From a virus: 64,000 nucleotides of DNA. The position numbers were made by a program, and so were the translations under genes. Positions 5,379 through 27,608 of this stretch are shown here, in pieces. The notes below the pieces were generated by a model that worked only from the letters and a program-made list of their open reading frames with translations, did no database searches and was not told the origin of the DNA. The first letter of the stretch is position 1. Each line of letters starts with the position of its first letter. The DNA lies in IMG/VR virus record IMGVR_UViG_3300047476_001831, positions 18,086-82,085 of that record; one strand, given 5' to 3'.

Positions 5379-5453
5379 TGTCCTGTAACTCAGTTGGTTT
5401 AGAGTACTACGCTGATACCGTAGGTGCCGTGGGTTCAAGTCCCACCAGGACAA
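5379..5453 (+). tRNA. tRNA-Ile (GAT)
   Basis: Acceptor TGTCCTG with CAGGACA, anticodon loop CTGATAC on CTACG/CGTAG. Confidence 0.94.
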
Positions 5454-5477
5454 CTATTTTTTTAATACTTAAAAATT

Positions 5478-5882
5478 ATGAATCAAGAATTTGTACCCTT
5501 TGAAGAATCCTTGGAATTAAAAGAAATGGGATTTGATGAATTATGTTTTGGATATTACTCGAATGGTCAAATAACGAATGTTGACTTGAATTGGGTAAGT
5601 ACTTCAATCAATCCCCCCACTTTAATTGATGGTGGATTCTATAGTATGAAAAATAGTGACACCACTAATGAACTTAATTGCACTGCACCAATCTATTCAC
5701 AAGTATTCCATTGGTTTATGGAAACCCATAAAATAGATTCCAGTGTGATGGAAATGAAGTTTGTGATTGAGTCTGATGAAGATTTACCGAAATGGTTTTA
5801 TGGGTTCAATAATTATGACGAAACAAAATTAGGATGTTTAAGACAATTAATTAGAAAGGTTAAAAAAAATGGAAAGGGTTAA
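5478..5882 (+). CDS. conserved phage protein (FxPFEES / ELGFDE-type)
   Basis: 134 residues. The opening EFVPFEESLELKEMGFDE and the middle APIYSQVFHWFMET match the pattern of a small family common in phages and prophages; no activity is established to my knowledge. The C-terminus is basic (RKVKKNGKG). It overlaps the next gene by 14 bases, indicating translational coupling. Confidence 0.85.
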   Translation: MNQEFVPFEESLELKEMGFDELCFGYYSNGQITNVDLNWVSTSINPPTLIDGGFYSMKNSDTTNELNCTAPIYSQVFHWFMETHKIDSSVMEMKFVIESDEDLPKWFYGFNNYDETKLGCLRQLIRKVKKNGKG

Positions 5883-6126
5883 AATTGGTGAATACAAAAT
5901 TGGGGATAATTTGATTATCGAATTTGGTGAAAACAATCCCAACAATAAGGAAGTTCAGGTTAGAGCGATAGTTGATATGGAGGTTGTAATTTTATTGGAT
6001 AAGAATCAAAATTATTTAATGGAAACAGTAAAATATATGAATCTTTTATGTAGATTTGGGAACGTTATTCGTGAAAAGAATGATGTGAGATTTCAAACCG
6101 AATTAATTCACGACCCAAGAATCTAA
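5869..6126 (+). CDS. 85-residue hypothetical protein
   Basis: Starts inside the previous gene at 5869. Mixed beta/helix composition, no motif I recognise. It ends three bases before the next gene, so 5478-6426 is probably one operon. Confidence 0.75.
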   Translation: MERVKIGEYKIGDNLIIEFGENNPNNKEVQVRAIVDMEVVILLDKNQNYLMETVKYMNLLCRFGNVIREKNDVRFQTELIHDPRI

Positions 6127-6129
6127 ATT

Positions 6130-6426
6130 ATGCTAAAAAGAATTATCAAAAGGAGTACTTGTAAGTTTTACGAATCAATTAGAAACCGATTTAATATGGA
6201 GTGTGTGTTGAGAGAAGGTGATTATGTTTATGATATTGAGGATGGGAGTGAATGGTTGTTATTGGAAAATCCCAATAAAGGTGGTTCGGCAAAAAGTATT
6301 TGTACATTTGCGCCTGAAGGTTGTGTGTATAAAATAGGAACACCATTCAAAAGATGTTATTTTGATGAGTTTGGTAAATTGAGAAAATACCTCAAAAGAG
6401 GTATGAACCCAGAAAGAAATTTTTAA
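6130..6426 (+). CDS. 98-residue hypothetical protein
   Basis: A basic N-terminus, then a compact region with GDYVYDIEDGSEWLLLE that could be an SH3-like beta fold. Cys residues at several points. No recognised family. tRNA-Lys follows 5 bases after the stop. Confidence 0.75.
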   Translation: MLKRIIKRSTCKFYESIRNRFNMECVLREGDYVYDIEDGSEWLLLENPNKGGSAKSICTFAPEGCVYKIGTPFKRCYFDEFGKLRKYLKRGMNPERNF

Positions 6427-6431
6427 TTAAT

Positions 6432-6506
6432 GACCCTGTGGCTTAGCTGGTTTAAAGCACAATACTTTTAATATTGGGATCGGGAGTTCGAATCTCCCCA
6501 GGGTCA
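6432..6506 (+). tRNA. tRNA-Lys (TTT)
   Basis: Acceptor GACCCTG with CAGGGTC, anticodon loop CTTTTAA on CAATA/TATTG, T arm GGGAGTTCGAATCTCCC. Confidence 0.95.
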
Positions 6507-6731
6507 CTTAGGTATAGTTTGGATTATTAATCCCATTGAACTTGCGGTTACTTTATATGTGAATAATGAAGGGGTAAAATTAATACCCATTTGTTTGAAA
6601 TCGAAAACTTCGAATTCTTGTTCCTCATAAACTCCAACAATCGAACTTGTTTCGTTATTGATGTATAAGGAATCAAAGGTTTTTAAGTTTATTACTAAAC
6701 CTATTTCAACTGGGGGGATAAGTATTGTCAT
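6504..6731 (-). CDS. 75-residue hypothetical protein on the minus strand
   Basis: Begins MTILIPPVEIGLVINL and is beta-rich in feel. No plus-strand gene occupies 6507-6775. A late-promoter-like motif on the same strand lies just upstream at 6745-6756, which supports it as a genuine minus-strand late gene. Its last codon overlaps the tRNA-Lys end. Function unknown; it might be a small virion protein. Confidence 0.55.
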   Translation of the reverse strand: MTILIPPVEIGLVINLKTFDSLYINNETSSIVGVYEEQEFEVFDFKQMGINFTPSLFTYKVTASSMGLIIQTIPK

Positions 6732-7609: not shown

Positions 7610-7685
7610 AGTTTTGTAGCTTAATGTGTGAAAGCGTTCAATGGGTAACTGTTGAAAGATTTAGGTTAGAATCCTGTCAGGACTA
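7610..7685 (+). tRNA. tRNA-like gene with enlarged anticodon loop
   Basis: Acceptor AGTTTTG with CAGGACT, D stem GCTT/AAGC, and a weak T arm with loop TTAGAAT are present. The anticodon stem TTCAA/TTGAA encloses ten bases (TGGGTAACTG) instead of seven, so no anticodon can be assigned. It may be decayed or a tRNA-derived RNA. Confidence 0.55.
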
Positions 7686-8948: not shown

Positions 8949-8988
8949 CAAAAAATAGTTCAGTTAGTTATTTTTACTCATTTTGTTG

Positions 8989-12423: not shown

Positions 12424-12432
12424 GTCACAAAG

Positions 12433-12463
12433 TTTGGAAATTAGAAATGGTTTTGTAACTTTG
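12433..12463 (+). promoter_or_regulatory. Bacteroidota-type promoter, nearly leaderless
   Basis: TTTG at 12433-12436, a 19-base spacer, TAacTTTG at 12456-12463. The ATG of the next gene is only five bases further on. Confidence 0.75.
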
Positions 12464-12467
12464 TAGT

Positions 12468-12947
12468 ATGAGAAAACAAACACCATACATATCATCTTCA
12501 GTCGCCATAAAAGGGATTAATGATTCAGTACTTGCGAAGTCAGAGAACAACGATTGTGTAGTAAGAGCTTTTGCTTCAGCATACAATGTATCTTATGATT
12601 TTGCACACAAAAAAGTCGCTGAATTATTTGGAAGAAAAAATAGACAAGGGACATTTTGTTTCAGTATTGTAATGAGACAAATGGAACTTCAAGATGTAAG
12701 GATAAATAAGAAAAAAGTTCAAACAATAAGAAAAGATGTGAATCTATCTTATTGGGTAAAAGTAAAAGGTGTGAACAAATTAAGAAATATGACAACTGCA
12801 AAGTTTTTAGAGGATTTTCCCACTGGAACTTACATTGTCACAGTCAAAGGACATGCTTTTACAATAAAGGATGGAGTGGTAATTGGAAATCCAGAAGATG
12901 CAACTCAAAGAAAAAAAAATATCTTTGGTGCTTGGAAAATAGGATAA
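12468..12947 (+). CDS. papain-like cysteine peptidase-like protein
   Basis: 159 residues. ENNDCVVRAFASAYNVSYDFAH (near residue 26) places a Cys at the start of a helix as in C1/C39-type peptidases. GTYIVTVKGHAFTIKDGVVIGN (near residue 120) supplies the His in a beta hairpin and a following Asn. Related phage proteins are predicted peptidases or deubiquitinase-like folds; the substrate is unknown. The transcript from the promoter at 12433 would start at or next to the ATG. Confidence 0.7.
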   Translation: MRKQTPYISSSVAIKGINDSVLAKSENNDCVVRAFASAYNVSYDFAHKKVAELFGRKNRQGTFCFSIVMRQMELQDVRINKKKVQTIRKDVNLSYWVKVKGVNKLRNMTTAKFLEDFPTGTYIVTVKGHAFTIKDGVVIGNPEDATQRKKNIFGAWKIG

Positions 12948-12961
12948 GATTACTTAACTTT
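12931..12961 (+). promoter_or_regulatory. Bacteroidota-type promoter for tRNA-Asp
   Basis: TTGG at 12931-12934, a 19-base spacer, TAacTTTG at 12954-12961. It overlaps the end of the peptidase gene. Confidence 0.6.
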
Positions 12962-12989
12962 GTAAAGTTAATTGAAATTGAGGAATAAA

Positions 12990-13063
12990 GGGCTATTGGT
13001 GTAGAGGTCGAACATGCCACCCTGTCACGGTGGAGATCAGGGGTTCAAATCCCCTATAGCTCG
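12990..13063 (+). tRNA. tRNA-Asp (GTC)
   Basis: Acceptor GGGCTAT with ATAGCTC, anticodon loop CTGTCAC on CCACC/GGTGG, T arm AGGGGTTCAAATCCCCT. Confidence 0.95.
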
Positions 13064-13080
13064 CAAAAAAAATTAATATT

Positions 13081-13215
13081 ATGACAAAGTTTATTATTGC
13101 TTGTATTGGTATAATTATTTTGGGTTTTATTGGGAACTACATCATTAAAAAATATCCAAATTCTTGGGTTGCAAAATGGTGGGATGATATGACTGATAAT
13201 GCCCATTGGTGGTAA
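13081..13215 (+). CDS. 44-residue membrane protein
   Basis: ATG at 13081 to TAA at 13213-13215. One hydrophobic span (residues 4-23), then a tryptophan-rich tail (WVAKWWDDM, ending HWW). Function unknown. It sits between tRNA-Asp and tRNA-Glu. Confidence 0.55.
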   Translation: MTKFIIACIGIIILGFIGNYIIKKYPNSWVAKWWDDMTDNAHWW

Positions 13216-13222
13216 AATATAT

Positions 13223-13295
13223 GTTCCATTCGACAAGGGGTCTAAGTCACCTCCCTTTCACGGAGGAGTCATGGGTTCGAATCCCATATGGAATA
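13223..13295 (+). tRNA. tRNA-Glu (TTC)
   Basis: Acceptor GTTCCAT with ATGGAAT, anticodon loop CTTTCAC on CCTCC/GGAGG. Confidence 0.94.
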
Positions 13296-13324
13296 CAAAT
13301 CTCAGAAGTAATTAATCTGGGGCT

Positions 13325-13342
13325 GAGAGGTTCGAAACTCTC
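13325..13342 (+). other. orphan T-arm, tRNA remnant
   Basis: GAGAGGTTCGAAACTCTC forms a perfect T arm, but no acceptor, D arm or anticodon arm matches it in the preceding 30 bases. It is probably the 3' relic of a deleted tRNA. Confidence 0.4.
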
Positions 13343-13345
13343 GAA

Positions 13346-13474
13346 TGGCTATGGTGTAAGGGCACACGGTCCCCCTGGGCGACAATATTGCGAAAGGGTA
13401 TCCTTAATAGGAGAGAGTATTGTGAAACGATAGAAGTAAGGGACTGGGGAAGGGTTCGAATCCTTTTTAGTCAA
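13346..13474 (+). tRNA. tRNA-like gene with a large insertion in the anticodon arm
   Basis: Acceptor TGGCTAT can pair with TTAGTCA (six of seven), a D-like GGTGTAAGGGCAC follows, and the T arm AAGGG-TTCGAAT-CCTTT is good. CGGTCCC near 13368 pairs with GGGACTG near 13440, enclosing roughly 65 bases that fold on their own (ACAATATT with AGTATTGT). The anticodon is unreadable. It may be an intron-containing or disrupted tRNA. Confidence 0.4.
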
Positions 13475-13483
13475 CAAACATAA

Positions 13484-13555
13484 TGCAAGGAAGTGTAGAG
13501 GTTGCACATTGGGCTCATAACCCAAAGGTAGTGGGTTCGATTCCCACCCTTGCGT
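13484..13555 (+). tRNA. tRNA with CAT anticodon (Met or Ile2)
   Basis: Acceptor TGCAAGG with CCTTGCG, anticodon loop CTCATAA on TTGGG/CCCAA. Whether it is charged with Met or lysidine-modified for Ile cannot be told. Confidence 0.9.
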
Positions 13556-13564
13556 CAAACACAA

Positions 13565-17259: not shown

Positions 17260-17360
17260 ATGAAGGTTGGGTGGTGTAATGGTAGCCACGCAAGACTTAA
17301 AGAAAACTCGTAAAATTCTAAAAAAAATGTGTTTGTTAGTTCGGTTTAGGTACATTTGTT

Positions 17361-17374
17361 GATATTTATATATA
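17361..17374 (+). promoter_or_regulatory. late-promoter-like motif inside the intron
   Basis: GATATTTATATATA, 12 bases upstream of the HNH ATG; the same string precedes the HNH gene at 9001. Confidence 0.45.
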
Positions 17375-17385
17375 AAGAAGTTTAT

Positions 17386-18219
17386 ATGAAAACAAAATAC
17401 AACAAAGAGGTATTAACCGAGGCAATTAGAAAAAGTTTTTCGATTGCCGAAACTTGTAGAAATCTGTCAATTAGACCTAGTGGTGGTAATTACAAAACAT
17501 TAAATTCTTTAATAAAAGAATACGATATTGACATTACTCACTTTACAGGACAAGGTTGGAATGTTGGATTGAAATTTAGACCAATGAAAACTTACTTATT
17601 AGAAGATATCTTGGTTGAAGATTCACAATATAGAAGTTCTTACAAACTAAAAAACAAATTGTTTGAAAATGGGATTAAACAAGAAAAATGTGAGGTTTGT
17701 TCAAATTCGGTATGGAACAATAAAAAAATTCCTCTTGAACTCCACCATATAAATGGAGTGAATACTGATAACAGAATAGAAAACTTACAGATTTTATGTT
17801 GTAATTGTCACGCACAAACTGAAAATTTTAGAAAAGGGAAGAGTGCTCTCGCTGAAAAGAGGGAAGTAGAATACCGTAAATTCAAGGAAGCCTCAGCTAG
17901 TAATGTTGGTGGTAATCTTGAGCCAAGTCTCAGGAATGAGAAAGGTGCAGAGACTAGACACGGTACATCTAAGTCTAAAAAACCAAAAAGACTTTGTAGT
18001 CTTTGTGATAAAGTTTTGAAGAATAATCAGACAACATATTGTTCAACAGAATGTTATTATCAAGGAACAAAAGGTAAAAGACCCCCAGTATTTGAACTTA
18101 TTAAAAAATTTGAAGACCTAAAAACATTTGTTAGTGTTGGAAAATTTTATAATGTTAGTGATAATGCAGTTAGGAAATGGTGTTCTTATTATGGTATTTT
18201 AGATATGGTGAAGGTATAG
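17386..18219 (+). CDS. intron-encoded HNH homing endonuclease
   Basis: 277 residues from ATG 17386; an upstream in-frame TTG would translate the promoter motif. CEVCSNSVWNNKK, then the HNH core LELHHINGVNTDNR and IENLQILCCNCHAQT (zinc Cys pairs plus catalytic His). A linker around residues 165-195 (SASNVGGNLEPSLRNEKG) is the translation of the ribozyme core. The C-terminus has another Cys-pair knuckle and a helix-turn-helix (VGKFYNVSDNAVRKWC) for site binding. The stop lies within the S element. It would cut intron-less tRNA-Leu genes to spread the intron. Confidence 0.92.
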   Translation: MKTKYNKEVLTEAIRKSFSIAETCRNLSIRPSGGNYKTLNSLIKEYDIDITHFTGQGWNVGLKFRPMKTYLLEDILVEDSQYRSSYKLKNKLFENGIKQEKCEVCSNSVWNNKKIPLELHHINGVNTDNRIENLQILCCNCHAQTENFRKGKSALAEKREVEYRKFKEASASNVGGNLEPSLRNEKGAETRHGTSKSKKPKRLCSLCDKVLKNNQTTYCSTECYYQGTKGKRPPVFELIKKFEDLKTFVSVGKFYNVSDNAVRKWCSYYGILDMVKV

Positions 18220-18320
18220 TCCAGACTACAAACAAGAAATTGGTGGTGAAAACCATAGTAGTAAGAAAATCTTGTGGTCAGTAAGACCGTGCGGGTTCGA
18301 GTCCCGCCCCGACTACTAAA

Positions 18321-18394
18321 GATTCTATAGCTCAATTGGTTAGAGCTTTCCGCTCATAACGGAGGGGTTCGAGGTTCAAGTCCTCGTGGAATCA
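18321..18394 (+). tRNA. third tRNA with CAT anticodon
   Basis: Acceptor GATTCTA with TGGAATC, anticodon loop CTCATAA on TTCCG/CGGAG. With two others at 13484 and 13565, the set may be initiator, elongator and Ile2, but which is which is not decided. Confidence 0.92.
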
Positions 18395-27197: not shown

Positions 27198-27228
27198 AAC
27201 CCCTCTTTATCGGAGGGGTTATTTTTTT
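27198..27228 (+). terminator. rho-independent terminator
   Basis: AACCCCTC pairs with GAGGGGTT, then a T run that abuts the 3' end of the tmRNA on the other strand. Confidence 0.9.
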
Positions 27229-27608
27229 GGTGGAGGCATAGGGAGTCGAACCCTTTCCTGTCCATCTTAACTATTAAGGACTACATGCTTAGGACAACAT
27301 TATTCACAATGTTCCGAGTTAGTTAATTTTTGATACCCCAAAATCAACAAAATCAGTCAATTCATTTTTAGGGATGAGAATTGATTAGACAACCCTATAG
27401 TACTTCTGTTCCTGAGTGAATGTACCCCGACTCGAAAGTAATGACCTATTGACTAGGCTACTACTGCTTCTTCAGCACGGATTAAACCTACTGCAGAAAG
27501 TTTGTTGATAACGTTGCCGTTTATCGTTTCAAACCAGTTTAACAGACTTAGTTTAGGTCTGGCATGCCCCAAATAACTAACTATGTCAGTCGATACCAAA
27601 TTGCCCCC
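27228..27608 (-). ncRNA. ssrA: tmRNA (transfer-messenger RNA)
   Basis: 381 nt on the minus strand. The ends form a tRNA-like acceptor: 5' GGGGGCA pairs with 3' TGCCTCC, followed by encoded ACCA. The T arm is AGGGTTCGACTCCCT. The 5' region GGTATCGACTGACA and the GGGGCATGCC segment are typical of tmRNA. An internal reading frame (27456-27518, stop TAG at 27453-27455) encodes a tag starting GNVINK and ending AEEAVVA, longer than usual and ending AVVA instead of ALAA. tmRNA frees stalled ribosomes and tags the product for proteolysis. Promoter at 27630-27660. Confidence 0.93.

Follow-up and report, generated by a model that had tools for sequence, protein, structure and literature searches.

The tRNA-Leu(UAA) gene of a tailed phage, recognized as such by the portal, major head and terminase genes of its 82-kb record, is interrupted by a group I intron at positions 17299-18265 of the window, the 64,000-nucleotide stretch of IMG/VR record IMGVR_UViG_3300047476_001831 analysed here. 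We consider it very probable that this is a mobile intron whose HNH homing endonuclease is dual-coded with its ribozyme. With somewhat less assurance, we propose that a two-domain endonuclease gene threads its own ribozyme, the complete core coding the linker, and that this arrangement was formed by the merger of a free-standing endonuclease with an ORF-less intron in Bacteroidota and phages. It thus seems that one stretch of bases serves both as folded ribozyme and as the code for a flexible hinge between the halves of an enzyme.

Run in intron mode over the whole window, ARAGORN called a tRNA-Leu(taa) spanning 17265-18316 and put an intron of 967 bases at its position 35; the reversed window gave no call. 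A chance tRNA at this place is ruled out by the call together with the covariance-model match given below. Joined, the exons (17265-17298 and 18266-18316) fold into an 85-nt tRNA-Leu of class II whose anticodon loop has seven bases and whose anticodon is UAA. The preliminary description had restored the same molecule, set it within a phage tRNA array and broken it between U34 and A35, all of which stands, although the gene is better ended at 18316 than at its 18315. A run of A residues at both borders (intron AAA.., exon AAAA) leaves the junction uncertain by up to 3 nt when the tRNA is folded by itself. It was set at U17298^A17299 and G18265^A18266 because of the group I end rules, by which the U of the 5' site pairs with G and the last intron base is G; here U17298 pairs with G17841 and the last intron base is G18265. 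Junctions yielding Phe(GAA) or Ser were ruled out, since CTT^..G|AAA is common to the relatives and the end rules set the site. The end pair of the tRNA is G1.U72. This gene is the sole UAA-reading tRNA-Leu of the record; a second tRNA-Leu in the window reads UAG, and a tRNA search of the other 18 kb found none. Two further intron-bearing ARAGORN calls, at 5379-6507 and 12426-13556, merely joined adjacent tRNA genes and were dropped. Elsewhere in the window, Rfam places a tRNA at 7610-7685 where ARAGORN makes no call, and the phage bears a tmRNA gene at 27228-27608 (-).

Default ARAGORN and Rfam runs on the window miss the intron because the long ORF splits the ribozyme. The Rfam Intron_gpI match at 17791-18045 (44.2 bits, E=1.1e-9) lies under the cut-off of 50, and its placement of P8 and P7' was rejected as wrong, the ORF inside P8 having misled it. 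A covariance model (R1) built from 21 phage introns, all outside the window's own clade, matched 17841-17966 at 99.9 bits (E=1.7e-22), the second-best place in the window reaching E=0.43; structure models thus do find the core of the group I intron that had been proposed from the letters. Introns were gathered through the same core motif in IMG/VR and through HNH-protein relatives from viral and genome contigs, and 58 of them, nearly all inserted at U34^A35, were aligned with MAFFT after removal of their ORFs. This alignment supports P1 to P9 with 94.7% of cells paired, a level compared with at most 82.1% in 500 shuffles and 29-42% in slid alignments. Changes on both sides were seen in 31 of 55 base pairs (at most 27 in the shuffles). 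Of the core helices, P3, P4, P6, the guanosine-binding P7 and P8 are paired and most covary, and within the window sequence P1, P3, P4, P6, P7, P8 and P9 each pair. The intron would be expected to splice itself. The elements are as follows.

17265..17298 (+): 5' exon of tRNA-Leu(UAA), ending CUU (C32 U33 U34); ARAGORN intron mode
17299..18265 (+): group I intron, 967 nt, last base G; Rfam, covariance model, 58-intron alignment, ARAGORN
17841..17846 (+): internal guide sequence (IGS) GAGTGC, its GAGU pairing with exon ACUU 17295-17298 (P1); 99% of P1 cells paired across the 58 introns
17847..17864 (+): P2 hairpin closed by a GAAA loop, with a single G.A mismatch in the window; each base pair shows 2-6 pair types
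17872..17877 (+): 5' strand of P3, UACCGU; 347 of 348 cells paired with 17960-17965
17882..17951 (+): P4, P5/P5a and P6/P6a; 58-intron alignment and covariance model
17952..17956 (+): 5' strand of P7, GACUA; 290 of 290 cells paired
17960..17965 (+): 3' strand of P3, ACGGUA; 58-intron alignment
17966..17969 (+): 5' strand of P8, CAUC; 232 of 232 cells paired
18207..18210 (+): 3' strand of P8, GGUG; 58-intron alignment
18217..18221 (+): 3' strand of P7 (P7'), UAGUC, with the ORF stop codon inside; 58-intron alignment, frame analysis
18225..18262 (+): P9 (ACUAC/GUAGU) around the P9a hairpin 18244-18255; 58-intron alignment
18266..18316 (+): 3' exon of tRNA-Leu(UAA); ARAGORN intron mode

GAGTGC is the conserved guide sequence among these introns. 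At 17841 it lies about 540 bases past the splice site, whereas ORF-less relatives of roughly 195-208 nt have it about 10 bases past, and the nuclease half of the HNH gene therefore fills the P1 loop. Shortly 3' of the 5' splice site, at 17309-17318, stands CGTAAAATTC, kept in the window and in the related loci L004 and L110, with L001 almost matching; it is like the P3-P4 core strand (CCGTAAATTC) and may be a remnant or a decoy strand.

After the nuclease half, the HNH frame passes through the IGS, P2, P3, P4, P5, P6, the 5' strand of P7, the 3' strand of P3 and the 5' strand of P8. Its parts are listed here.

17386..18219 (+): HNH homing endonuclease ORF, 277 aa, crossing the ribozyme core; stop TAG 18217-18219 in P7'
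17386..17838 (+): codons 1-151, N-terminal helical part and HNH nuclease domain, in the P1 loop; AlphaFold, dN/dS
17839..17970 (+): codons 152-195, linker specified by the core of the ribozyme; pLDDT <50 at 152-193, low dS
17971..18216 (+): codons 196-277, Cys-rich finger and helix-turn-helix-like C-terminal domain, in the P8 loop; AlphaFold, dN/dS, homology

In a frame scan, the HNH frame of the window, L001, L004, L005 and L067 had no stop between the guide sequence and the UAG of P7'; the translation of L110 likewise leads from the HNH part across the core to the C-terminal domain, its diverged core having escaped the scan. These straddling examples are metagenomic contigs throughout (IMG/VR and one MAG). 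Phage introns with a P5 about 10 bases shorter have the frame closed before P7' in all except L057. Ten further phage introns of similar core (L035, L036, L037, L048, L050, L060, L061, L074, L076, L080) have an open frame that begins near or upstream of P2 and crosses the core into an endonuclease-like domain.

The HNH gene noticed in the preliminary description is real, its protein matching phrog_10822 over residues 2-265 (E=2.2e-51), but the frame across the core and the two domains flanking it had been overlooked. Although the Pfam HNH match falls below its cut-off, an HNH motif with paired Cys-x-x-Cys is present in the conserved LHHINGxxxDNR and CxNCH. AlphaFold models the 277-aa protein with mostly high pLDDT before residue 152 (except 58-64) and with confidence after about 195, while pLDDT is below 50 at 152-193, the core-coded residues (codon 152 starts at 17839). 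The overall pTM of 0.39 is as expected if the model holds two domains on a flexible tether. A PDB fold search gave weak HNH-type matches only (best E=0.12) and therefore contributed no mechanism.

Related introns are present in other phages and in Bacteroidales genomes. About 57 of 61 distinct introns (>55, from phages and Bacteroidota) were placed by ARAGORN at the CTT^..G|AAA site, and Ser, Phe or Tyr calls among the 61 were discarded as junction slips. The tRNA-Leu(UAA) of phages and Bacteroidota is therefore a recurring insertion site of group I introns, represented by many cases, and the HNH genes found in P1 loops there form several separate lineages. Repeated targeting of this site, one of two origins first suggested for the intron, agrees with these counts and with the free-standing HNH relatives beside tRNA-Leu genes described below. 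The other, transfer from a bacterial intron, is borne out as far as kinship goes, the closest non-phage ribozyme relatives being in Bacteroidales, and transfer may have run in either direction: one starred clade of the ribozyme tree (100/98) unites the straddling phage introns with those of Bacteroidales. The window and L001 are 87.5% identical over nearly exactly the tRNA and intron (17270-18323); their neighbouring protein-coding stretches are mostly 66-76% identical and differ in order. Among 295 genomes from the order to which L113 belongs, a strict core pattern was found in one; the covariance model, run on 395 genomes from the phylum that includes Hymenobacter L154, detected core relatives in 22, so the strict pattern was too narrow. 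Those inspected among the 22 are introns in tRNA-Leu(UAA) and tRNA-Arg(UCU), and a search of plasmids for relatives gave no matches. In L182-L186, Bacteroidota chromosomal group I introns lie in tRNA-Arg(UCU), between tRNA-Pro and tRNA-Cys.

The HNH protein also has free-standing relatives, with both domains or the first only and with a poorly conserved linker, and the C-terminal domain of the window is homologous to their C-terminus. One of them, L006, aligns at the DNA level to window positions 17363-17816 and 18094-18212, omitting the core. The nearest tRNA is tRNA-Leu in 23 of 24 free-standing loci, 12.4 being expected from the tRNAs of the same loci. Some of these genes abut or overlap the tRNA, and that of Hymenobacter L154 lies between tRNA-Gly and tRNA-Leu(UAA). 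A relative in Rhodococcus phage Dorin sits between tRNA-Glu and tRNA-Gly, so the preference for tRNA-Leu is not absolute. The loci L144, L152, L153, L157 and L167 each have an ORF-less tRNA-Leu intron and, just downstream of it, a free-standing HNH gene of this family (the ARAGORN tRNA-Ser label of L157 and L167 was rejected as a junction slip). That free relatives stand beside either intact (23/24 loci) or intron-bearing tRNA-Leu suggests that endonuclease and ribozyme met at one target, and the single element likely arose when an HNH gene that targets tRNA-Leu fused with an ORF-less intron of that tRNA. Two loci show further arrangements. At L153 3266-3850, an HNH gene has been inserted behind tRNA-Leu, and past it the 3' end of the tRNA recurs as a short repeat (CCGAGGCAC) that may mark the insertion; at L018 2905-3760, a phage tRNA-Leu(UAA) has a 772-nt intron with a related HNH gene and a weak core match (19.6 bits).

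The same mechanism could have had the reverse history, the straddling intron being ancestral and the free two-domain HNH genes beside tRNA-Leu having arisen through loss of the ribozyme. Intron-borne and free genes are interspersed in the HNH tree, in which a few rows taken as free (e.g., L018, L144, L152, L157) later proved to be intron-associated, and AU tests did not separate a single origin of the straddling form from multiple origins (p=0.35 and 0.29). L006 clusters with the window, L001 and L004 (support 89), as this history would have it, and the downstream HNH gene of L167 ends in core-coded residues, so some free copies derive from introns. However, the free-standing relatives are more diverse and mostly lack a core-like linker, and we regard ribozyme loss as a rather unlikely account of the whole.

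Selection differs along the frame. Between the window and L001, dS and dN are 0.63 and 0.07 in the N-terminal part, 0.15 and 0.03 in the core and 0.34 and 0.11 in the C-terminal part; between L005 and L067 they are 0.84 and 0.18, 0.13 and 0.11, and 1.01 and 0.11, respectively. Synonymous change in core-coded codons is thus about 2- to 8-fold lower than in the flanking parts, and the core bases are therefore held as RNA. The N-terminal part has a dN/dS of 0.12 (window-L001). For the C-terminal part, the ratio is 0.31 (window-L001) and 0.11 (L005-L067), and this downstream domain is therefore held as protein; it is probably a DNA-binding domain.

These values bear on whether the frame across the core has any function. 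Core creep, the overlap of a homing-endonuclease ORF with the core, is known, for example, from the T4 td/I-TevI intron and the LSU intron of Synechococcus lividus (PMC3073962). Were it of this ordinary kind here, the nuclease half alone would work, and the core frame and downstream domain would be passengers or a separately started small protein. Many one-domain relatives do enter the core and stop at varying points, as core creep predicts (PMC3073962). Many Bacteroidales introns read partly or wholly through the core with the second domain absent. The frame of many one-domain relatives ends in P6, and that of L011 stops in P7, with only a small P8 hairpin and without the C-terminal domain; the nuclease half therefore does not depend on a frame through the core. 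Passenger status for the window's downstream half is nonetheless improbable, as its C-terminal domain is under protein-level selection and shares homology with the C-terminal end of the free two-domain proteins, and the frame is preserved in window/L001, L004, L005/L067 and L110. A degenerate intron in a tRNA pseudogene, to which the one P2 mismatch and the G1.U72 end pair could point, is very hard to credit against seven paired helices in the window, the only UAA-reading tRNA-Leu of the record and an ORF that is intact and under selection.

A two-domain endonuclease gene threaded through its ribozyme would raise a conflict between folding and translation, and a motif in the P1 loop may bear on it.

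17361..17369 (+): GATATTTAT, promoter-like phage motif in the P1 loop, 16 nt 5' of the HNH ATG

This motif occurs eight times in the window against 2.04 expected, and on the + strand 10 of 11 occurrences of (G/T)ATATTTAT in the window precede the ATG of an ORF of at least 50 aa. Copies stand upstream of many ORFs (e.g., at 8988, 17361 and 18798), with the look of a phage promoter, and GATATTTAT also stands 5' of HNH genes in related phage introns. In Bacteroidales, a TTTG-N16-21-TAnnTTTG element is found in 11 of 27 P1-loop leaders against 0.2% of shuffles, the leaders being mutually related and hence not independent. By motif match, the P1 loop may therefore hold a candidate promoter. We envisage that the transcript of the tRNA operon would fold, with P1 formed by exon ACUU and GAGU and followed by P2-P9, and splice itself to give tRNA-Leu(UAA). 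A separate transcript from the promoter-like element would lack the 5' exon, so that it could not be spliced at the 5' site yet could be translated, and the conflict would be resolved in this way. On this transcript, ribosomes would read through the core and make a single 277-aa protein of HNH domain, core-coded flexible linker and C-terminal domain, ending at the UAG of P7'. The protein would then cleave the intronless target site in tRNA-Leu genes of co-infecting phages, and repair would copy the intron in.

Group I introns in the tRNA-Leu(UAA) of cyanobacteria and plastids were reportedly described by Kuhsel and by Xu in 1990, both cited in PMC3984707. The cyanobacterial introns (lineage IC3) are inserted at U34/A35, the same site as the window intron, and in cyanobacterial and plastid introns a short guide pairs with exon CUU. 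They usually lack an ORF, whereas the window intron has an HNH gene that crosses its core. In collaborative homing, a free-standing endonuclease is found near an intron site, as in cyanophage psbA. There as here, a free-standing endonuclease is tied to an intron-occupied gene, but the present family has tRNA-Leu as its target and shows many intermediate arrangements side by side. How a ribozyme and a homing endonuclease unite into one mobile element is a standing question, and at this one target the stages coexist: HNH genes beside intact tRNA-Leu, beside intron-bearing tRNA-Leu, within the P1 loop and across the ribozyme core. The term "collaborative homing" is in use (PMC10448857).

Phage introns seen by the time of a 2014 review were all in protein genes (PMC3984707). 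Introns in phage tRNAs were first reported in 2019 from Lak megaphages, which infect Bacteroidota (PMC6784885); these too lie in phage tRNA genes but, unlike the window intron, are termed enigmatic, and the available part of that report describes neither a group I ribozyme nor a homing endonuclease in them. A search of the open literature found no papers that treat group I introns in the tRNA-Leu of phages or Bacteroidota, which is weak evidence as subscription papers were outside its scope.

The Synechocystis tRNA-fMet intron has its endonuclease ORF in P1 with a 61-nt P1/P2 overlap (PMC3073962 Table 1). This bacterial tRNA intron shares the P1 position of the ORF with the window intron, but it lies in another tRNA, encodes a PD-(D/E)XK nuclease and has no second domain in P8. 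More broadly, the window's homing-endonuclease ORF shares bases with the ribozyme core as in other core-creep introns (PMC3073962). However, the overlaps tabulated there span 0-81 nt against about 140 core bases in the window, whose ORF, unlike theirs, enters before P2, exits in P7' and has a folded domain on either side (PMC3073962). Core creep is already known, and the window form is an extreme case of it, with unusually strong dual coding in which about 140 bases must keep both a catalytic fold and frame-exact open coding.
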